A stretch of DNA of 52,910 nt, from the IMG/VR virus record IMGVR_UViG_3300024319_000017, positions 1 through 52,910 of that record. One strand, given 5' to 3'. Positions 1-15,062 of the stretch are shown piece by piece (position 1 is the first letter of the stretch; each line of letters opens with the position of its first letter). The stretch is from a virus. Below the pieces are notes generated by a model. The model searched no databases. It was not told the DNA's origin and worked only from the letters and a program-made list of their open reading frames with translations. A program made the translations under genes and the position numbers.

Positions 1-89
1 AGTTTGGCTTCATTTACTGATTCTTTAAGTTCACCTCTTAGTCGTTTGATTTGTTCATTCATCAATTCTCTATTCTTTTTGATACTCAT
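1..89 (-). CDS. Partial CDS: N-terminus of a probable prohead core/scaffold protein (gp22 position)
   Basis: The reverse strand opens with ATG at 89 and runs open off the window edge for 29 codons (MSIKKNREL..., ending near LKESVNEAK). The visible part is charged and looks helical, as expected of a scaffold. It follows the gp21-type protease, and in T4 the next gene is 22, the main prohead core scaffold; that assignment rests on gene order alone. It carries an ESVNE string, which recurs in other head-region proteins of this window and fits the [hydrophobic]-x-Glu cleavage preference of T4-type prohead proteases. An AGGA stretch lies about 8 bases before the ATG. Confidence 0.55.
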   Translation of the reverse strand, partial: MSIKKNRELMNEQIKRLRGELKESVNEAK

Positions 90-107: not shown

Positions 108-722
108 TTATAAACAACAAACGCCATCAATCTCACAAATGATGTCACGTATTATATTATTGATTTTATTATATGATTTTAATTTATTAGATGTTATTGA
201 TTCGTTTATTGGTCTCATAAATGCACCATGTGTAGATGGATTAGATACAAAATCCCAACAAACTAAATCAAAGTCATCTTCTACTACAACAGTGCCACCC
301 TTTGATTCTTTTACTGAACCCATACCACGTGATGATATACCAACTGTACAGCCAGCTTCCAATAGTTCTTTTAGGATGTTTCCGGCTGGAGTTTTTAGAA
401 TTTCAACTTTACCAACCACATCGTTACCATCCCACCATACATCTCTAACTATATGTGATGTATTTTTTAATTCCACCACCGATGAATCCGGATGGTCTAA
501 TTCACCATAAGCACGATTTTCTTTGATTTCTCTATCTTTGTATTTAGATACTTCACGCATTAGGATTTCTTTTGGATATACCCTACCATTTTGGTTTTTA
601 GCTTCAGCCCTTTGTAAGACACCCTCTACTATTAACCTACCACCATTAGTTGCAATAGCCTCATTGATTTGTGCTTTTGTTAAGCTGAAATTTTGTGTAT
701 CTACTAATAGTCTTTTCATCAT
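108..722 (-). CDS. gp21: Prohead core protease (T4 gp21-like)
   Basis: Serine protease that cleaves scaffold and capsid precursors inside the prohead before DNA packaging. The 204-residue protein shows the U9/S77 family landmarks: the catalytic His in GELDHPDS and the catalytic Ser in VGISSRGMG, followed by the DFDLVCWDFVSNPS stretch that usually follows the active site. Length matches T4 gp21 (212 residues). The gene starts ATGATG; an AAGGA ribosome-binding site spaces better from the second ATG (719), so the protein may be one residue shorter. It lies between the portal group and the presumed scaffold gene, as in T4. The C-terminal region contains INESI, a possible self-cleavage site. Confidence 0.93.
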   Translation of the reverse strand: MMKRLLVDTQNFSLTKAQINEAIATNGGRLIVEGVLQRAEAKNQNGRVYPKEILMREVSKYKDREIKENRAYGELDHPDSSVVELKNTSHIVRDVWWDGNDVVGKVEILKTPAGNILKELLEAGCTVGISSRGMGSVKESKGGTVVVEDDFDLVCWDFVSNPSTHGAFMRPINESITSNKLKSYNKINNIIRDIICEIDGVCCL

Positions 723-729
723 TTCCTTG

Positions 730-1236
730 TTATGAGCTTAGTTCTTTTATTTTTCGTGCAACTCTAACCATTCTTTCAGATATTTTCTGAAATCTAGCTT
801 GTGTTGATTTCCAATATTGTCCGTTGTGTACACCTGCTTCTTGTTTTAATTTTGAATTTTGGTTTACAATACGTTCCATTTTATACATCATCGAATTTAT
901 CTTTTTGATTGAATCGTTTATTTTTTGATAATCCTTTCTTGAATCATCTTTTTTGTATTCTTTATAAGATATTTCGTTGATTAATGATTCCATCTTAGTT
1001 TCAAAAGCTTCCATTGCTTGTGTATGCTTATTGGATTTTTTGGATTTTTTGTAACCCAACACTTCAATTGTGTCATCATCCAAATCATCTTCATCGTTAG
1101 ATTTTGAAAATGCCATTGGCGTTCTTGGTGGGCCTTCACCACCATCTAAATTAGATGTAACATTCGCTTCATCCAATTCTTCTTCTTCATATTGTTGAAA
1201 TTTATCGTTAAGTTCTTTTATTAAACTTTTCATCAT
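730..1236 (-). CDS. Acidic/coiled-coil protein in the prohead-core position (gp67/gp68 position)
   Basis: Not recognised by named family. The 168-residue protein has an acidic N-terminal half (residues about 15-60, with a GGEGPPRTP turn and a DEDDLDDD run) and a basic, probably helical C-terminal half. It sits between portal and prohead protease, where T4 has the small core proteins gp67 and gp68, so a role in the prohead core is inferred from position. The start ATG overlaps the stop of the upstream gene in an ATGA, indicating translational coupling. It starts ATGATG. Confidence 0.75.
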   Translation of the reverse strand: MMKSLIKELNDKFQQYEEEELDEANVTSNLDGGEGPPRTPMAFSKSNDEDDLDDDTIEVLGYKKSKKSNKHTQAMEAFETKMESLINEISYKEYKKDDSRKDYQKINDSIKKINSMMYKMERIVNQNSKLKQEAGVHNGQYWKSTQARFQKISERMVRVARKIKELSS

Positions 1237-2078
1237 TTATATACCTTTTTCAGTTCTTTGTATAATTCATAATACCTAAGTAATGATAATACTTGAGATT
1301 CTGATATTATTTTCGATTCTTTCAATTTGGCTGTAAGCTTTGTAACTTCATTTACTTTTATTTTTATAACATCATCTGTTATGTTAATTTTATTTAGAGC
1401 GGATTCTAAGATATTACATTCTTTAACAACAAATGATTTCAACTTTTCAGAATTATCTACTGAATTGATGTATTCCTTTAATACACTTCTTTGTTTTTTA
1501 GTCAGCGTTGTGTATTTTTCGTTAAAGTTTTCAACTAAAAGTTTCCAAGCGAGTAATCTAACTTCTTTAGGCTGTTTTGAATAACTTTCATTTACTTTAG
1601 ATTCTACAACAGATTTTTTAGATTTACCAGTCATATGCTCTAACAAAGTTGATTTACATTCTATATGTTGTTTAGGGTTATCGTTACTTGAATATTCAAA
1701 TAGTTTATATATTGATGCATTTTCTTTATAGTTTGTAATTCTATATTTAAAGAAATCCTCTAAAACATATTTATTTTTAATATCTTTTATTAAATTATAC
1801 TTTTCTCTATTTAATGATTTTTTATTTAATTTAGAGCGCTCGTTAAGTATTATATTTAAAAATTCACTAGCTTTATATTCTGAATTAAATACTTCGTTGA
1901 TTGTAGTTTGGTATAATTTAAGTTCTTTTGATAAATCAGTATTATTACTAAAATACTTTTTGATTATAGCCGTAGCGTTTGAATCTCTATTGTTTAAAGT
2001 ATCAGTAGCTATCTGCCTTACCAAAAGCTCAAATAGAACACCAGTATTTCTATATTTGTTGTGTTTAAGTTTTTTCAT
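1233..2078 (-). CDS. Conserved phage protein between portal and protease, probable prohead core component
   Basis: A 281-residue Lys-rich protein starting MKKLKHNKYRNTGVLFELLV. I recognise the general type from T4-like marine phages, where a protein of this size follows the portal gene, but I know of no assigned function. It looks mostly helical. It contains VNESY near residue 165, similar to the ES[VI]NE strings of other head-region proteins here and a possible prohead-protease site. The 45-base gap to the portal gene contains an ATATTTATA element (coding sense) about 35 bases before the start. The gene is translationally coupled to the following one. Confidence 0.75.
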   Translation of the reverse strand: MKKLKHNKYRNTGVLFELLVRQIATDTLNNRDSNATAIIKKYFSNNTDLSKELKLYQTTINEVFNSEYKASEFLNIILNERSKLNKKSLNREKYNLIKDIKNKYVLEDFFKYRITNYKENASIYKLFEYSSNDNPKQHIECKSTLLEHMTGKSKKSVVESKVNESYSKQPKEVRLLAWKLLVENFNEKYTTLTKKQRSVLKEYINSVDNSEKLKSFVVKECNILESALNKINITDDVIKIKVNEVTKLTAKLKESKIISESQVLSLLRYYELYKELKKVYK

Positions 2079-2123: not shown

Positions 2124-3956
2124 CTAAATATCAGATTCCAATATATTTTTTTCATCTAACATATCAATTTCATCTTTATTATCAGTAGGTTTTAAAGATT
2201 CTGTTATAATTTTCTTAGTTTTAAGCTTCATCTTCATAGAATCTAACATAGCATTAGTAGATTCACTATTTATAGATTTATTTCCCAATGGGTCACGACC
2301 AAATGGTGATTTATCAGTTGCGTAATTACCACCCTCTTTTGGTCTACCAGCACCTTCCCAACCACCATCTGGAACTTCATTTTCAAACTGTGGTTTTTCA
2401 CTATCACCGCCACTTTCTGTTTGTTGGATTGTTGCAAGGTCGTGTGGTGTTCCGAATGATTCACCTGTAACCGATGGGTCATTACCCTCATTCTGTATTT
2501 GCTCTTGCCTGAACCCTAATTTCAAATCATTGATAACGCCATATTGTTCTTTTTGCCACTCTTGCTGAGACATATTGAATATATTTTCATATATCCATTT
2601 TTGAGATATCAATTTACTATCTTTCAAATCATTAGCTAATCTAATTTTTTCAGACCATAAATTTGCTTTTTCTTGGTCATATATTACCGATGGGTTTGTT
2701 AATTCTATGTTGAAATTAACCAAATCGGCATCAGTATATCCTTGAGAGTATAAATGTATTATTGCTATTTTAGTTAGTTCTGAAAGTGCAATCTTTTGGA
2801 TTCGTTCAACCGAGCGAGCGAACCTAATATCTTGTTGAGCTAACGTAGCTTTACCCGATACACCCTCATCATATCCGATAAACGATTTTGGCACTTTAAG
2901 ACCTGCTAACATTCTGTTTTTTAAGTATTCAACATCATCAATACCACCAAATTCCATCCCACTTAGAGAATCAATTTCAGTTCCACTCTGACCACCCCTA
3001 ATTGGCAAGTAATAATCTTCCAACATATTTTGAAGATTGAACTTTAGATTGTAGTCTCCAGTGGTTTCATCTATATATGGTGTTTTTTTCATTTGGTCTA
3101 TGATATTACGCATATATGTATCCACTTCACCCGGTGGTATATTACCAATATCAATTTTAAAGATTCGCTTTTCAGGCGCCCTCATAATGCGATGTATCAT
3201 CATCGCATCTTCCATCAAGGTTAACTGCTTCCAAGTTTTCCGTGCTCCTTCTAATAAAGAGCGGCCGTAGGGTAGGAAATTACTATCAGATATTAATCTG
3301 AAGTGGGCCACTTGGAATGATTCTAAGTATTTTGTATTACTTTTAACTGAATGATGGTTTGTATTGTGTTGTTCTACTTCAAATCTAACTGAATATGGGT
3401 TATCCAAATCGTAACCTTCTTCTCTTATAGTTTCATATACTGAGAGTGGTTGTACATTTACAACACCCAATTCATCATCGATATCCAAATATAAATAGTA
3501 GTCACCATATTTGACCATACCACGAATCCATGCCCATAGGTTGAATTCGATATTCAAAACATCATAGAATAAATTATTTAAAGTTTTCTTTATTTTTTCA
3601 TTTGATGAATTTATTCTAAGAACATCATTCATATCATTTTTTAAAGTACATTCATCAGAATATATATCCAAAACAGATGATATTATGGAATCCTTATCCA
3701 TAGCTTCATAGTCTGTATAAAGTTCTAATTTGTTAGAATGATAATTAAAACGGTCATTGTAAGTTTGCCAATTCTTCTTTGAGTTAGAGCCGTGTAATCT
3801 ACCGTATCTATCATAGTAAGATGAGCTTTCTGAATTACCAGAGCTCTGAAGTCTTGATGAGTCAACTACTTTGATTTTGTTTTTGCCGAGCCGCCTTACA
3901 ACAACTTGTGTTGAAAACAATCGTTGAAGTCTACTGAATAATGATTTATCTGCCAT
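2124..3956 (-). CDS. gp20: Portal vertex protein (T4 gp20-like)
   Basis: Forms the dodecameric portal through which DNA enters and to which the tail attaches. The 610-residue protein shows gp20-family segments: GMVKYGDYYLYLDID near residue 146, DEDYYLPIRGG-type spacing as EDYYLPIRGGQSGTEI near 310, and the stretch GLKVPKSFIGYDEG followed by KATLAQQDIRFARSVERIQ. T4 gp20 has 524 residues; the extra length is a C-terminal Gly/Asp/Pro-rich tail of about 100 residues that ends acidic and contains IITESL. It follows the large terminase by about 55 bases, as in T4. The start ATG has no clear ribosome-binding site; an ATATTTATA element lies about 32 bases upstream. Confidence 0.95.
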   Translation of the reverse strand: MADKSLFSRLQRLFSTQVVVRRLGKNKIKVVDSSRLQSSGNSESSSYYDRYGRLHGSNSKKNWQTYNDRFNYHSNKLELYTDYEAMDKDSIISSVLDIYSDECTLKNDMNDVLRINSSNEKIKKTLNNLFYDVLNIEFNLWAWIRGMVKYGDYYLYLDIDDELGVVNVQPLSVYETIREEGYDLDNPYSVRFEVEQHNTNHHSVKSNTKYLESFQVAHFRLISDSNFLPYGRSLLEGARKTWKQLTLMEDAMMIHRIMRAPEKRIFKIDIGNIPPGEVDTYMRNIIDQMKKTPYIDETTGDYNLKFNLQNMLEDYYLPIRGGQSGTEIDSLSGMEFGGIDDVEYLKNRMLAGLKVPKSFIGYDEGVSGKATLAQQDIRFARSVERIQKIALSELTKIAIIHLYSQGYTDADLVNFNIELTNPSVIYDQEKANLWSEKIRLANDLKDSKLISQKWIYENIFNMSQQEWQKEQYGVINDLKLGFRQEQIQNEGNDPSVTGESFGTPHDLATIQQTESGGDSEKPQFENEVPDGGWEGAGRPKEGGNYATDKSPFGRDPLGNKSINSESTNAMLDSMKMKLKTKKIITESLKPTDNKDEIDMLDEKNILESDI

Positions 3957-6492: not shown

Positions 6493-6991
6493 TTAGCCCT
6501 AATGATTTAGCGTATCTTGGCAATGCACATGACCAATACCCAGCTTTTGTTTTATCCTTTTTATTAGGACAATCGTGTCTATCGGAAAATGCTTTTCTTG
6601 CTTTTGGGTCTTTAAGTTTTACTGCGAGTTTACCACCACCACCTTTAGCACCAAATGATACTTTTATAACATTACCTTTTTTGTTTTTAACATACACATA
6701 GAACTTTTTAGAACCACCGCGTTTAGGTTTATTCAGTTCTACTTTTTTACTCTGATACTCAGCTTCAGCTAGTATTGGAAAATCTAACAATACAGGTTCA
6801 CCTTTATATCTACCAACGTTACCAATATCAGAATCTAAAAAGTATTTCAAATTATCACTAACAGATTCCAATTTAAGTTTTCTTAAGTCATTGAAATATT
6901 GAAAAAACTTTACTGAACCATATCTGTATGGATTCTTATGTAGTGGTACGTTATTGTCCACATTGTATATTATACCTTCATTTAGTTTCAT
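6470..6991 (-). CDS. Structural/internal protein with C-terminal Cys-basic domain (DUF5872-like)
   Basis: A 173-residue protein. The N-terminal 90 residues are not recognised. The C-terminal half contains KKFYVYVKNKKGNVIKVSFG, DPKARKAFSDRHDC and YWSCALPRYAKSLGLSGGG, an arrangement I associate with a small basic domain (DUF5872-type) common in head or tail proteins of marine phages. Two Cys residues (DRHDC and WSC) with neighbouring His may bind zinc or be structural. It belongs to the same run as the 651-residue linker-repeat protein and the other basic Gly-rich protein, all probably made late. Function not known. Confidence 0.7.
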   Translation of the reverse strand: MKLNEGIIYNVDNNVPLHKNPYRYGSVKFFQYFNDLRKLKLESVSDNLKYFLDSDIGNVGRYKGEPVLLDFPILAEAEYQSKKVELNKPKRGGSKKFYVYVKNKKGNVIKVSFGAKGGGGKLAVKLKDPKARKAFSDRHDCPNKKDKTKAGYWSCALPRYAKSLGLSGGGRFW

Positions 6992-6998
6992 AGTAGTA

Positions 6999-8954
6999 TT
7001 ATATATTTGTTAAATCTGATAGTAATTTCATTAATTTTTTATCGTTCTTTTGTTTAGCCAACTTAGCGATATTCTTTAGGTTTTTCTTATTAAGACCCTT
7101 ACCACTATGCCCAACTAAATCTGAATAACCTTTCATCCATCTATCCCTTTTATAATCAATAGAATCTTTGTGATTGACTTGGATATGTTTTTTGATTTGT
7201 TTTTGTATAGTATCAATCTTCTCCATTTCCGACCAAGATACTTCGTTTATTGATTTGAAATAATCTTTCCAATAATATTTAAGAAATCTAAAGTTATTAA
7301 ATGATAAACTGGTTGTCCAATCCTCTATACTATAGTCTAACGATGACCCGCCTGAATGGAAGTGAACAAATAAATCTTCCGGCGTATCTTGTTCATGATA
7401 TACTTGAGCAAATCTAAAATCGTTAGTCGTATCTGGATGAATAAAAATAGCGAGTGTAACAATACCATTTTCATAATAAAAAGGCCCATTCTTTTTTATC
7501 CATTTTTCTGGATTCTTAATTGATTTGAATCCCTGTATTTTAGCAAATTTCTGAACCATATTCAATAAATTAGTAGTAGAGTCTACTTCATTTATCGATT
7601 CACCTAGTGGTTTTAAGTCAGTCATATCACCACTCAATTCATAATCAGCAGTCCAACCTACTTTGTTTAACTGCTTAATAGTTTTTTTAGCAGCAGCATA
7701 TGAATCATCATCGAAATCATGTGCATCTAATACATCTTGTACTTCTTGTGGTAGTAGTTCATATTCATCAAAATAATCTATCTTAGGGTCGTATTTGAAC
7801 TTAGCTTCATTAATTGATTCATCAAGATAATCTAAGAAATATAGTGCTTGTTTTAATGTTCGTGGATAATTACCAGTTTTTTCTTTAGCCAATTTAACTA
7901 TGTACATAATAGCTTCTTTCCTACCTTTACCAGCCTTAACTTTATCTGTTATTGATATAGCTTTATCCAATTTCTGCTTTTCATCAGATGATAATTTAAT
8001 TTCATTTACTGATTCTTTTATACCTTGTTTTTTGATAGCTTTCAATAAGTCATCTGTATCTACATACAAAGTTCCAATAACTTCTGTATCACCATCAGGT
8101 AGTATTTTTTTAAATGTGGCACTTGTTGCATTTACGTTTGTACCTTTTCCTAAATAATATTGATTTTGACCAATTTCATACTTTTTACCATCCTTACCTA
8201 TTATGTTATGATGTTGTCCATGAACCCACATCTGACCACCTACAAATTGTTTTAATCTCTGCTCAGCACTCTTTGCACTTCCAACTACCGATGGCATTAT
8301 TTTTTTAAGTAAAGATAGATTCATATCTGGCTGTGACATATAAAAGTTTCTATCTGTCCATTCATTTACGGATTCTTTCTTCCAACCACCACCTGCGGCT
8401 TTGTATTTCTTAGCGGCCCATGCATTTGCATATGCAGATGGGTATACATCAAACTTTTTCTTAGCTTGTGATTTATAGTAAGACCACTTTGATGGATTTG
8501 TAGGTACATTCTTTTCTAACAATGTATTTAACTTTTCCACCAAATTGGGTTTATTTGTTGATTCATGTAAACCCATATCAACCCACATTTTTAAAACTTT
8601 ATAATAATCATCAGGAGTTAAACCTCTATCTTCTCCCCAAGTTGTTTCACTTGTAAGGTCGTACATTTGTTTTGCTAACGCTTTTAAATTCCCCTCTTTC
8701 CAATAAAGTGTTGCTCTACGGTTTCCTCTATCCATCAACCTTAATTCTCTACCTCTTTTATCGTGTGGGTCTGTACTCCATCCAGCTGATGAATTTACGT
8801 TAATACTGAACTGTGGTAATCCATCAACTTTAAAAACTGTAAAATCTGGACCAGTTGCATAGTCCTTTGATTGTCTAGTTATTTTTAAAGTTTCTGTAAT
8901 CTGAGATTCTCTTAAACTATCTATATATGATATAGTCCACTCTTTTAAATTCAT
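6999..8954 (-). CDS. Multi-domain protein with five ES[VI]NE/KSINE linkers, candidate processed head cargo protein
   Basis: A 651-residue protein built of short modules separated by near-identical linkers: ESVNE at 194-198 and 314-318, ESINE at 379-383 and 452-456, KSINE at 567-571. The first module ends with a PSKWSYYKSQAKKKFDVYPSAY-type motif (about 155-190) seen in many marine phage proteins; the others look unrelated to one another. T4-type prohead proteases cut after Glu with a hydrophobic residue two positions before it, so each linker is a plausible gp21 site and the protein may be released as about six fragments inside the head. This is inference. A good AGGAG precedes the start, which overlaps the upstream stop in TAATG. 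Confidence 0.75.
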   Translation of the reverse strand: MNLKEWTISYIDSLRESQITETLKITRQSKDYATGPDFTVFKVDGLPQFSINVNSSAGWSTDPHDKRGRELRLMDRGNRRATLYWKEGNLKALAKQMYDLTSETTWGEDRGLTPDDYYKVLKMWVDMGLHESTNKPNLVEKLNTLLEKNVPTNPSKWSYYKSQAKKKFDVYPSAYANAWAAKKYKAAGGGWKKESVNEWTDRNFYMSQPDMNLSLLKKIMPSVVGSAKSAEQRLKQFVGGQMWVHGQHHNIIGKDGKKYEIGQNQYYLGKGTNVNATSATFKKILPDGDTEVIGTLYVDTDDLLKAIKKQGIKESVNEIKLSSDEKQKLDKAISITDKVKAGKGRKEAIMYIVKLAKEKTGNYPRTLKQALYFLDYLDESINEAKFKYDPKIDYFDEYELLPQEVQDVLDAHDFDDDSYAAAKKTIKQLNKVGWTADYELSGDMTDLKPLGESINEVDSTTNLLNMVQKFAKIQGFKSIKNPEKWIKKNGPFYYENGIVTLAIFIHPDTTNDFRFAQVYHEQDTPEDLFVHFHSGGSSLDYSIEDWTTSLSFNNFRFLKYYWKDYFKSINEVSWSEMEKIDTIQKQIKKHIQVNHKDSIDYKRDRWMKGYSDLVGHSGKGLNKKNLKNIAKLAKQKNDKKLMKLLSDLTNI

Positions 8955-10216: not shown

Positions 10217-12700
10217 TTAATAATACATTAAACCTAATATCTGATTCAATGGTGCAAATGTGCCTGTTAATTTGTAGGTATTACCTTTATATACAAATAC
10301 AATACCCTCACTTGGAACTAATTTTTGCTTACCACCTGCGGCTAGTAATCGTTCTAATTCTAATTTTAATTTTTCTATTTTACGTACATCACCACTCTTT
10401 TTGATATCTTTTACAGTCTGGTCTAATCGTTTTTTCATAGCTCGTAGTGCAGTATCACTATTTACAGTTAAAACCGAACTCATTATCGATAATACATCAG
10501 CACCAACCCCTAAGAATATATCTTCAAACTTTCTTAAATTAGATTTTGATAATTTCTTTTGGTCTTTCTTATCAGTTTTTTTAGCCCAAACTAATACATT
10601 CGTATCTGTTATGTTTCGTTTATCCAATCTAAAAGATTTATCCATAAACGCCCACCTCTTAACTAATCCCATTTTAGTTTTATTATCTAATGTAGATGGT
10701 GAATTTTCATCAACCCACACTTCCCACCAAGCTTGATGATAATCAGCAACACCATCACTATCAGTTAACCCATACTCTTTTTGTAATTTATCAATCATTG
10801 ATAGATATTTAGATTGTTTAGTTGATAGCTGGTCTGATTTAGGTAATTGTGTTACGGGCGGCCCTTGTATTGTGTAATTTTTCTGAATGTTTTTATTTAT
10901 TTGCTTAATCATACCGGCTAGCATTCTAGCAGCACTTTGATTTTCACCAATTGCCTTACCATCCACATCATACTGCATTGTACCATGAAATATAAGTAGC
11001 GGTTGTCCGTATGGTATTACATTTACGGATGTTGGATAAATTACCTCTAAATTCATAAACGATGAGCCTTGCTGAAACACTTTATCTCTTTGTGATTTAC
11101 TTAATGATTTGATAGCATTACTCAAATCAACCATAGCAAAATTATATGCATCTGTTAACCCACCCCTACCTTGAAACTTTGAAGCTATACCACTTATATC
11201 CAACGCACCCTCACCACTATTTTTTAGATGTGATTTATTCCTAGCAGCAATCAAACCCATATCATCACGCCAACTTATAGCTAATGCTTGACCATCAGTT
11301 TTTTCTCTTGTTAGTTCTAAGTTACCGGTTAGAGCACCCCTAACTATATTTTTCAAATCACTAAAGGTTAAATTCATTTCAATATCAAATGGATGATTCA
11401 TATGCCCATATGCTCCACCTTCTGTAAGTAATGATTCGTTTACGGGTGTTCCACCCAAAAATTCAACAAGTTTATATCCGACTTGAGTAGCAACATTATT
11501 AATATGATTTTTCCAAGTTTGATAATCAGGTGAATCTTTTATTGATTTATATGATTTAGCATTAACACCACTTACACCAGATGGAAAAAATGATACAGGA
11601 TAAGCATCATCTATTGAACGATTATCATCGGCATATATATCATCACCATTTGGATTTAATATGTAATCTATAACTTGAAATCCAAGTCGAAATGCAATTT
11701 TATCATTAATAGCCTTATATGATTTTGAATCTCCAAAGAAAACTCCAGGACCATCATCTACCAATGATTTACCTAAAGCTCCATTTGTTGATGCTTCTTT
11801 AATCGTTACAAAATTTTCCGATTCTGGTATTTCATCATATACTTTATATACTGATTTTATTATAGCATGTAATCCTTCAGTTTCATCATCTATTTCAGAT
11901 GGATACATATTATCTGCTGTTGGAAAGTGTAATTGTGTATATTTTAGTTTTTCAAACCACGGCTCACCTCTACCTTTAGCACTATTTTTACCGATAACCC
12001 TAACATCATTAGGTGGTAAATATCCTTCTTCAGGCTCACCGGGTTCTACATTCGATTCTGATATTAGTTTGTTTATATCAAACGTACTTAGAAACGATTC
12101 TAAAGTAGATTCAAGTTTATACAATTTACCACTTATTAGGTTGAAAATTTTAGGATTAAACTTACCGTAAATACGTTTGAATTCAGATTTACGTTTGGAT
12201 TCACTACCACTTGATAATGATTTTCTAACTTCAGTACCACTAATTGTGCTTAGAGCTGGTGCTACATAAACATACCCCTTTTGTTTATATCCCATTTGGA
12301 TTTTATCAGGATGGTATGGGTCGAAGTACTTCCCTTTTAATCTATACCTATCCTTTTCACCAACCACCGGTATAAACGCTGTGGTATTCGAATCGAAATT
12401 ACCAATGATTTCTTTAGGTGCATATGGATTTCTAATCTGAACTATTTTGGATGATGGAATACCAAACATTTTCATCATTATTTGTTTTTTTTCAACAAAC
12501 TTAAATGGTGATTTTAAAGTATCTGTTTTGTTTGATGTTCCAATGTAAACATTATCTTTACCAAACTTATCTACTAAGTGTTTGTAAGTAGCGTAATGTC
12601 CTGAATGAAATGGTTGAAATCTACCACTATACACTATAACTTTATTTTCTATATTTTCGGTTAATATGTTCTTAACCCATTCTTTAATTAATTTTCCCAT
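10217..12700 (-). CDS. Fusion of HxGH nucleotidyltransferase and KxDG ligase-like domain
   Basis: An 827-residue protein. Residues 20-200 form a cytidylyltransferase-like domain: SGRFQPFHSGH (HxGH at 32-35) and ISGTEVRK at 153-160, the two signatures of NMN/pantetheine/FAD-type adenylyl- or cytidylyltransferases. After an unassigned middle (about 220-430) comes a region with the order of motifs of covalent nucleotidyltransferases (DNA/RNA ligases): EKTDG with K467, NLEVIYP at 550-556, SEGIVFVY near 797-804 and YKLTG at 809-813, with a long helical insert between. This C-terminal part resembles a phage family usually labelled as unknown (DUF6267). ISES, VNESL and LTE strings flank the domains. 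I start at MGKLIKEW; the longer ORF would run into the upstream gene. Confidence 0.78.
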   Translation of the reverse strand: MGKLIKEWVKNILTENIENKVIVYSGRFQPFHSGHYATYKHLVDKFGKDNVYIGTSNKTDTLKSPFKFVEKKQIMMKMFGIPSSKIVQIRNPYAPKEIIGNFDSNTTAFIPVVGEKDRYRLKGKYFDPYHPDKIQMGYKQKGYVYVAPALSTISGTEVRKSLSSGSESKRKSEFKRIYGKFNPKIFNLISGKLYKLESTLESFLSTFDINKLISESNVEPGEPEEGYLPPNDVRVIGKNSAKGRGEPWFEKLKYTQLHFPTADNMYPSEIDDETEGLHAIIKSVYKVYDEIPESENFVTIKEASTNGALGKSLVDDGPGVFFGDSKSYKAINDKIAFRLGFQVIDYILNPNGDDIYADDNRSIDDAYPVSFFPSGVSGVNAKSYKSIKDSPDYQTWKNHINNVATQVGYKLVEFLGGTPVNESLLTEGGAYGHMNHPFDIEMNLTFSDLKNIVRGALTGNLELTREKTDGQALAISWRDDMGLIAARNKSHLKNSGEGALDISGIASKFQGRGGLTDAYNFAMVDLSNAIKSLSKSQRDKVFQQGSSFMNLEVIYPTSVNVIPYGQPLLIFHGTMQYDVDGKAIGENQSAARMLAGMIKQINKNIQKNYTIQGPPVTQLPKSDQLSTKQSKYLSMIDKLQKEYGLTDSDGVADYHQAWWEVWVDENSPSTLDNKTKMGLVKRWAFMDKSFRLDKRNITDTNVLVWAKKTDKKDQKKLSKSNLRKFEDIFLGVGADVLSIMSSVLTVNSDTALRAMKKRLDQTVKDIKKSGDVRKIEKLKLELERLLAAGGKQKLVPSEGIVFVYKGNTYKLTGTFAPLNQILGLMYY

Positions 12701-12731
12701 AATAATAAATACTATTTTAAAAAGTTTACGT

Positions 12732-15062
12732 TTAACTTGGTGCAGTTGGTAGCTCTGGTGAGTCAGAAACAGCCCCACTCGATGCATTAGCTGAAAACTG
12801 TCGTGTTGCGAATATATTTATGTTTTTAATTCTAGTATTAGCACCTGATGTTCCTGTACTTAAACTGAATATAATTTTAGAGTATTTGTTTAAGCTGCCA
12901 GTTGGTATTTCTTGTATAGCGCCAGCAACAAATCCAGAAGATATTGAATAACTTGATGTTAATGTAGATATAGCAGTACCGGTTGAACTTAACGGGTATG
13001 TTTGTATATTTGAAGTTGATTCGAACGAATCGTAGTAATCGATAGTTGTACTACTACCAGTTAAGGCGTTTGCTATTGATATTATAACATTATGTGAGCT
13101 TAATACCACACCATTAGCCGTACCTTTTGCTTGAAATGATATACCCATATGGGTTTCACCTTCTAAAAATCGGACCGGATATTCAACTACAACTGTGCTT
13201 GGGTTTACATCTGATATATATTCAGTATTATCTTGAACTAACACACGGCCTAAGTTTCTAAAATCAGCTACACCTGCTTGGGTGTTTATAAGTTCATATA
13301 AAGTACCACCATAATTTTGTCTAATTAGTAAGTTAGACCCACTAATACTACCACTTGCATTTAGAACTAAAGCGTTTATACTGCTTGATATTTCAAACTT
13401 AGATTCTATTGATTGTGATGTTATTGTGAATCCACCAATATCACCTGCTGTAGCCGTTACAGTACCATTTAAGGTTACATCACCATTTGGCTGTAGGTGA
13501 AAGTTAGATGAGCTTATTTCTATGTTTCCATCTGAACCACTTATGAATTGTGAACCCGTATTACCTACAAAGAACTTATCGGTTTTTATATCTAATACAC
13601 CACCACCAGCGGTTGTGAATATCATATGCCTATCATCATTATCACCTACCAATTGTAAACCCACCCCACTTAGCGAATCAGAACCTAAAGTAATACTTCC
13701 CGAATACATTATAAACCCACCAGCGCTTAACCCTAAAGATGCACTTGTTTGGCCGAGATAACCAACTGATTGAATTAACCCGCTTGAACGGCCAGACATT
13801 TCCATACCCTTTCCAATTTCATTGGATAGATACATTGAACCAGTTACAAGATTATCATTTCCAGCAAAATAATAATTACCACCTTGAAAAACATATGGTT
13901 CTGATGTAGTTAGAGTTTTGGATATTTCACCACCATAATTTAGGTATTGGAATCTTAGCTTCTTAGCATCTTTTAAGTGTTCTGATGGTATTGGTACTTT
14001 GATAGTGAATGATGTGCTAAATGGAACTTGCACTTCGTGTAATAGCTCATAGTCACCCGGCAACCCATCTGATTTTATTAATACCTTTACCTTCTCCACC
14101 AACCCAACTATTGGGTCTACATTACTAAGTGTAATATTAGCGTATGACCTCTTATTTTCTGTTGCTTGATTTGAGCTAGTTGAAAAGTAATCAACCGATG
14201 TTCTAACTTCATCTACAAAATTAAATGTATGGGTTAAATCAGTTTTATCTTGAAACTCGGTAGTGTATGGTTTATCTAATATAACAGTATTACTATCAAT
14301 TACAGAAACAATTATTGGATTATAGTTAAGTGATATTGGGTTTGGTATATTAGTAGCCGGTGTTGCTTTGTTAAATACAGTTGGTGTATCAAAATCAAGT
14401 GTAGACCCGACCATCTCACCATTAAAAGTGTTGCCAGTAGTACTTGTTTTTTGAGCGATTGGTGTACTTCCTTTATAAATATATCTGACTTTTATTGTAC
14501 CAGAACTTACTTTAGTTAATTCAGTACCGCTAAATGGTAAGTTCTGGTACGATTCTATACTTTCAGATATGGATACTGATGGTAATGATGTTGGGTTAAA
14601 TAAAACGGGCGATAGGTTATTCCTATCCCTATCCACTAAAACAACAACAGACCATCTTACGTTTGGGTTACCTTTGAATCTATCTGGTATAGGATTACCA
14701 TTTAAATCCACTTTAGATTCACCAACAATTGTTATCGTAGCGTTACCATTTGGTGTATTATCATCATCTTTATCATGGTATATCCAAATTGATATAACCC
14801 GACTCTTATCATCTTCTATGTAATCTGGTATTTCAAAATATATAGGATTTCCATTAGAGTCTCTAACATCAATCAATACTTTAGAACCATCAACAAGGTT
14901 TGTTGGATGTGCTTTTATCCTTAAAAGATTCTTCCCTTTCTGTAGTATTTGTGGAACATCGGATACTCTAAAAAAGTTTGGTGATAGCGGTGTACTATCA
15001 TCAATATAAACTTCTATATTTTGTAAATCTTCCCTCTGTTCGTTTTTAAATGTTAATGACAT
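12732..15062 (-). CDS. Tail fibre or appendage structural protein
   Basis: A 776-residue Ser/Thr/Gly-rich, Cys-poor protein. The N-terminal 370 residues look like several beta domains. Residues 390-540 carry repeated short strands (SGSITLGSDS, SGSDGNIEISSS, NGDVTLNGTVTATAG) that lead into GDIGGFTI at 540-547, a motif typical of fibre and tail-tip proteins just before a distal domain. A beta-rich C-terminal domain follows. Probably an adhesin or fibre on the baseplate; the receptor is unknown. Strong AAGGAG ribosome-binding site; an ATATTTATA element 15 bases before the start. It is separated from the other tail genes by the recombination genes. Confidence 0.75.
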   Translation of the reverse strand: MSLTFKNEQREDLQNIEVYIDDSTPLSPNFFRVSDVPQILQKGKNLLRIKAHPTNLVDGSKVLIDVRDSNGNPIYFEIPDYIEDDKSRVISIWIYHDKDDDNTPNGNATITIVGESKVDLNGNPIPDRFKGNPNVRWSVVVLVDRDRNNLSPVLFNPTSLPSVSISESIESYQNLPFSGTELTKVSSGTIKVRYIYKGSTPIAQKTSTTGNTFNGEMVGSTLDFDTPTVFNKATPATNIPNPISLNYNPIIVSVIDSNTVILDKPYTTEFQDKTDLTHTFNFVDEVRTSVDYFSTSSNQATENKRSYANITLSNVDPIVGLVEKVKVLIKSDGLPGDYELLHEVQVPFSTSFTIKVPIPSEHLKDAKKLRFQYLNYGGEISKTLTTSEPYVFQGGNYYFAGNDNLVTGSMYLSNEIGKGMEMSGRSSGLIQSVGYLGQTSASLGLSAGGFIMYSGSITLGSDSLSGVGLQLVGDNDDRHMIFTTAGGGVLDIKTDKFFVGNTGSQFISGSDGNIEISSSNFHLQPNGDVTLNGTVTATAGDIGGFTITSQSIESKFEISSSINALVLNASGSISGSNLLIRQNYGGTLYELINTQAGVADFRNLGRVLVQDNTEYISDVNPSTVVVEYPVRFLEGETHMGISFQAKGTANGVVLSSHNVIISIANALTGSSTTIDYYDSFESTSNIQTYPLSSTGTAISTLTSSYSISSGFVAGAIQEIPTGSLNKYSKIIFSLSTGTSGANTRIKNINIFATRQFSANASSGAVSDSPELPTAPS

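Follow-up and report, generated by a model that had tools for sequence, protein, structure and literature searches.

Linker-joined modules beside the head genes of an uncultured T4-like phage as candidate internal-protein cargo

Gene P0001 and its linkers

The window analysed here is a stretch of viral DNA of 52,910 nucleotides (IMG/VR record IMGVR_UViG_3300024319_000017, whole length). Upstream of the terminase gene, on the minus strand, lies P0001 (6999..8954; the P locus), which encodes a polyprotein of 651 aa and about 75 kDa. A sequence-only reading had listed five short linkers in this protein, and all of them were found at exactly the residues given: ESVNE at 194-198 (8361..8375), ESVNE at 314-318 (8001..8015), ESINE at 379-383 (7806..7820), ESINE at 452-456 (7587..7601) and KSINE at 567-571 (7242..7256). 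In 20,000 residue shuffles of P0001 the motif [EK]S[VI]NE occurred 0.0021 times on average and at most once, compared to five times in the real protein. Hydrophobic-x-Glu tripeptides as a whole numbered 14, against 6.8 in the shuffles.

Residues 1-21 (8892..8954) form a putative N-terminal leader, which ends in I-T-E (residues 19-21) and may, judged by its sequence, resemble a capsid targeting leader; in the relatives L125 and L102 the leader ends in I-N-E. A CTS-like leader pattern was weakly enriched among the ORFs of the linker-bearing loci (53/252, against 66/501 other plus-strand ORFs, gp23 among these). The module of residues 129-198 (8361..8570), which ends in linker 1, is DUF5872-like and common to many P-locus proteins, and residue 198 is the exact end of 12 homology segments. 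It is followed by residues 199-318 including linker 2 (8001..8360), present only in the window phage and its relative L003; residues 319-383 including linker 3 (7806..8000); residues 384-456 including linker 4 (7587..7805); residues 457-571 including linker 5 (7242..7586); and a basic C-terminal module of residues 572-651 (7002..7241). These modules had been described as having no visible similarity to each other; indeed, the six modules of P0001 fall into different clusters, none of them alike at E 1e-4.

Comparison with Pfam and NCBIfam assigned the modules to no significant family, and effector domains gave no significant Pfam, NCBIfam or PHROG match. The AlphaFold2 model of P0001 (mean pLDDT 50.3) was too poor for a fold search and lent no support to separately folding modules. 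P0001 shares its multidomain and mosaic make-up, its phage origin and its position near packaging genes with the polyvalent proteins, which are thought to be delivered with the DNA (PMC5512222). P0001 is nevertheless very unlikely to be such a protein (Iyer et al. 2017) and to enter the host whole and uncut as an effector of several domains: polyvalent proteins are defined by recognisable effector domains, whereas no P0001 module significantly matches an effector domain family, and the available excerpt of the source names neither repeated linkers of the protease type nor a regular array of them as a polyvalent feature (PMC5512222).

A second polyprotein gene and the head-gene neighbourhood

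The head-gene setting proposed for P0001 was borne out. A gp21-type prohead protease is encoded at 108..722 (minus strand; phrog_207, E 4e-56; T4 gp21 structure 5jbl, E 8.8e-23), and portal and terminase were also detected in the window. Directly downstream of gp21, at the window edge, begins a second polyprotein gene, X (1..89, minus strand; first linker at 23..9), which is absent from the earlier reading. It is complete in L009, with 807 aa and seven linkers. The 67,428-bp contig IMGVR_UViG_3300028416_000014 represents the same phage (100% identity) and shows the gene order gp21, X (807 aa), acidic gp22-like scaffold, gp23. The two genes with linkers border the head block, one upstream of the terminase gene and one between gp21 and gp22/gp23. 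All 12 core linkers of this contig are located in P0001 (five) and X (seven), i.e. in two of 83 non-overlapping ORFs, while shuffling of the ORFs (20,607 aa) gave a mean of 0.17 motifs. In two further long contigs the motif occurs three times in 2 of 129 ORFs and four times in 2 of 90 ORFs.

The nearest cultured phages by portal identity are Microcystis phage Mel-JY01 (56%) and the Flavobacterium phages immuto (47%). In immuto, the P position is taken by an 841-aa protein (QQO92109.1) with a single ESVNE↓G site. A separate 154-aa protein of Mel-JY01 corresponds to the conserved core domain of X; X may therefore be a cargo-laden core protein, that is, a core protein which acquired its cargo later.

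The gene after P0001 (6470..6991, minus strand) encodes 173 aa and contains the junction L-A-E↓A-E-Y-Q at 6772..6764, a predicted cut site of the type hydrophobic-x-Glu↓Ala. In one relative a linker-flanked insert of approximately 120 residues is located exactly at this junction. The C-terminal module of the 173-aa protein (AEYQGK type) is also found in cultured phages of different kinds, namely the Pelagibacter phages Aegir, Kolga and HTVC008M as well as Roseobacter phages, and is thus a widely shared phage domain.

Linkers resemble the processing sites of gp21 and gp23

The T4 protease gp21 cleaves after L/I-X-E; gp23 loses 65 residues, and the internal proteins and Alt are trimmed (PMC9026906, PMC9958956). 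The core linkers of the window phage and its relatives agree with this rule for gp21 substrates in presenting hydrophobic-x-Glu followed by a small P1' residue (A 60, G 22 and S 17 times among 135 core linkers), although P3 is usually V here. The fit of [VI]-N-E to the prohead protease rule, proposed earlier from P0001, extends to processing sites of the phage's own head proteins. An N-terminal site [ILV]xE is present in 47/47 aligned gp21 relatives and reads QINE↓A in the window (668..660), and many of these relatives carry a C-terminal VNE↓SV-like site as well. At the propeptide position of gp23, [VILM]xE was found in 36/36 sequences with mostly Ala at P1'; the window phage has LVKE↓A. The agreement of the linkers with these sites strongly suggests that gp21 cuts P0001 and X at the linkers.

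Distribution of linkers among relatives

Relatives were collected by scans of IMG/VR with P0001 (4 loci), gp21 (70 loci), X (13 loci) and terminase (best 80 of 234). Relatives were counted per contig, leaving aside contigs known to be duplicates and any further copy of the window phage; restriction to non-redundant terminases left 15 loci. Among the best 80 of 234 terminase matches, 33 contigs had at least 4 kb upstream of terminase. An ORF with at least one core linker was present in this P region in 26/33 of them, and one with at least two in 17/33. Downstream of gp21, in the X region, an ORF of the same terminase set carried at least one core linker in 14/18 cases and at least two in 5/18. 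Over all loci examined the P region had an ORF with at least one linker in 27/40 and one with at least two in 18/40, and the X region in 17/59 and 6/59, respectively; distant gp21 relatives lack core linkers at the X region. The close relatives without a core linker (7/33 in the P region, 4/18 in the X region) count against a role of these genes as cargo polyproteins.

The density of core motifs per 1000 aa was 1.29 for the 203 ORFs of the P locus and 1.59 for the 78 ORFs of the X locus, compared to 0.09 for the remaining 546 ORFs. Outside the P and X loci the motif occurs 19 times, in seven ORFs. Four of these belong to loci lacking anchor genes (L080, L086 and two in L088), two have N-termini resembling the gp22-like scaffold, and one is a homologue of the window gene at 2078..1233.

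In L106 an ORF upstream of the polyprotein gene (2290-3006) holds a second copy, 44% identical, of the N-terminal module of that polyprotein.

Modules turn over as cassettes between linkers

For module clustering, 99 proteins with at least one linker-like site, four of them included manually from L080, L086 and L088 owing to the lack of anchor genes there, were split at their linkers. This yielded 417 modules of at least 30 aa in 159 similarity clusters, 112 of which are singletons. The modules at the ends of the proteins recur while those in the middle vary, and several clusters are common to P and X loci. In a set of 74 modules the median length was 76 aa and the median pI 9.4, with 80% of the modules above 8.5; all but two of the six P0001 modules are basic.

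It had been suggested that related phages should keep the linkers and swap the modules. This comparison was carried out with a positive result: modules are swapped, lost or reordered among the relatives while the linkers remain. One such comparison is that with L003. Up to linker 2 its DNA agrees with that of the window in 934/946 columns (~98%), and the agreement breaks inside linker 2. A different cassette then takes the place of residues 319-383, and from linker 3 onwards the sequences agree again (201/207). Furthermore, L003 lacks a 345-bp unit extending from linker 4 to linker 5, beyond which 236/257 positions agree. The swap and the loss thus both start and stop in linkers. In terms of clusters, P0001 reads C2-C24-unique-C25-C26-C27 and L003 reads C2-C11-C24-unique-C25-C27; module C26, missing from L003, is present in the gp21-downstream polyprotein X of L004. 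A 12-base indel near residue 130 gains or loses a linker core between the window and L003. Linkers, modules, the turnover of cassettes at linkers and the match to the protease rule are directly visible at the level of sequence.

In L003 (2290-2380) the swapped-in cassette repeats, in front of its own linker, part of the tail end of the DUF5872-like module, possibly a trace of the recombination event.

A 633-aa linker-bearing protein of contig G005 (L174:10487-12388), in which no terminase was found, matches phrog_5268 in its C-terminal module from residue 332 (E 5e-45). A linker directly precedes this domain, which is otherwise a separate phage family, and this fits the import of a whole protein as a cassette. 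The 633-aa protein also gives a weak Zeta-toxin hint; weak ParB-like or Zeta-like hints were seen only in relatives.

The fate of the pieces has to be weighed against that of known core proteins. In T4, gp22, gp67 and gp68 are broken by gp21 into many fragments (PMC9958956, PMC9026906). P0001 and X would resemble them as core proteins with several gp21 sites, and X adjoins gp22 and keeps the conserved core domain that Mel-JY01 has as a separate protein. P0001 and X could accordingly be dispensable parts of the scaffolding core, whose gp21 fragments leave the head and whose modules do nothing in the host. We consider this unlikely. The pieces are hypervariable here, and the turnover of modules among close relatives, with 112 of 159 clusters as singletons and both a swap and a loss in L003, would be odd for a scaffold; a separate acidic gp22-like scaffold gene is located between X and gp23; and the median module length of 76 aa equals that of mature T4 IPI, which has 76 residues (PMC3012670). 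Rapid turnover, basic charge, size and the separate scaffold gene are the reasons why we favour cargo over scaffold. Counting against cargo, none of the P0001 modules could be given a recognised function.

Homology breakpoints follow the protease rule

In an all-against-all comparison of 827 ORFs (ORFs of L005-L007 having been removed beforehand) we scored the points at which homology stops abruptly within both of the proteins compared. The P and X ORFs, picked by gene position and not by motif, gave 788 such breakpoints. Core linkers accounted for 85 of them against 7.1 expected (12-fold). Other xS[VIL]xE sites coincided with 43 breakpoints (expected 5.2; 8.3-fold), x[VIL]NE without Ser with 55 (8.6; 6.4-fold) and the remaining [VIL]xE sites with 121 (39.7; 3.0-fold). 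The controls were [VIL]xD (32 against 40.2; 0.8-fold) and xSxxE with a non-hydrophobic P3 residue (19 against 11.7; 1.6-fold). The breakpoint excess tracks the prohead protease rule in a graded manner. A logo built solely from homology ends peaks at E-S-V-N-E, and over all ORFs 123 of 1590 boundaries fell on core motifs against a null value of 18.3. Boundaries of related proteins are non-independent in these counts, and a shared linker pulls alignment ends to itself. Moreover, 703/788 abrupt breakpoints lie away from core linkers, which counts against the cargo reading of the polyproteins.

The linker could also act as a mere recombination seed at the DNA level, or as a neutral interdomain linker in a protein that is used uncut. 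The codon skew is indeed strong: one identical 15-base sequence makes up 64 of the 135 linker copies, and 29 distinct DNA forms were found where 72 were expected. Part of the linker conservation is thus due to copying of DNA along with the cassettes. Nevertheless, the 108 copies in P and X ORFs with at most one mismatch are without exception in frame and none is reversed, one-base variants are synonymous in 27 of 42 distinct cases (20% expected), and no two of the five P0001 linkers share a DNA sequence. Breakpoints favour other [VIL]xE sites too, but not [VIL]xD, and the linker peptide agrees with the processing sites of gp21 and gp23. A role as DNA seed or neutral linker alone is therefore very unlikely; the linkers seem to matter at both the peptide and the DNA level.

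Proposed role as head cargo

P0001 and X probably represent internal-protein cargo of the T4 type, fused into polyproteins which are cut by gp21 and which turn over in a cassette-like manner. Each would consist of a leader and recurrent end modules, between which small, mostly basic domains are strung on ESVNE-type linkers. The polyprotein would enter the prohead core as a single chain, and the phage gp21 would then cut after the Glu of each linker to release separate mature domains. The freed domains might stay with the DNA and, once injected, take effect early in infection, probably by countering host defences. On the gene level, the linkers would in addition provide short stretches of in-frame homology for the exchange, loss and gain of cassettes.

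The closest known counterparts are IPI, IPII, IPIII and Alt of T4, which carry a capsid targeting sequence and are cut by gp21. A head-gene setting, a gp21 homologue and a cleavage rule after Glu are common to both systems, as are small, mostly basic, diverse domains; the putative short leader of P0001 would, like that of T4, end in hydrophobic-x-Glu. The internal proteins of T4 are described as diverse and injected (PMC9026906, PMC3012670), and those of T-even phages as diverse defence proteins in which only the targeting leader is conserved (PMC3012670). T4 has one leader per gene, whereas here a single chain contains many domains, each joined to the next by a candidate cut site, and cassettes are exchanged at these joints. 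The ejection proteins of the giant phages phiKZ and SPN3US are likewise head proteins cut after x-x-Glu, sometimes at several sites each, but in 13 of 14 mapped cases the cut takes off an N-terminal propeptide, and the consulted portion of that source describes no chain of exchangeable cargo modules (PMC10052503). A search of open-access journal papers by title and beginning of the abstract listed none on a polyprotein of internal head proteins.

It is about an even chance that the phage in this way keeps its injected anti-host factors as an exchangeable set within one polyprotein, with one in-frame element of 15 bases acting both as the recombination site of the cassettes and as the site at which the protease frees them inside the capsid. 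As the T4 internal proteins illustrate, anti-defence proteins can travel in a phage head, and their small size and mutual unlikeness make such proteins hard to find. If the linker marks cargo, it would offer a simple sequence handle by which many unknown proteins injected by uncultured T4-like phages could be listed, and would reveal how head cargo is re-stocked. The arrangement would also lend itself to loading a phage head with several proteins encoded by a single gene.

Other proteins of the window and its relatives

An N-terminal module of relatives had been considered, by eye, as an ADP-ribosyltransferase on account of a motif. A PDB sequence search gave nothing significant, the predicted structure was too poor for a fold search (mean pLDDT 49.5), and the assignment was dropped as evidence. 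PDB sequence searches with a similar-looking Mel-JY01 protein, a ParB-like-looking module and the phrog_5268 domain also gave nothing significant.

A 1378-aa ORF upstream of terminase in L094 (2847-6980) and L093 combines a cytidylyltransferase-like nucleotidyltransferase with an HD domain and a head domain of the poly(A) polymerase type; its C-terminus gives a sub-threshold hint of an ADP-ribosyltransferase. The window itself encodes, at 10217-12787 on the minus strand, an 856-aa protein whose N-terminal domain is NMN adenylyltransferase-like and whose long C-terminal part is of a different type.
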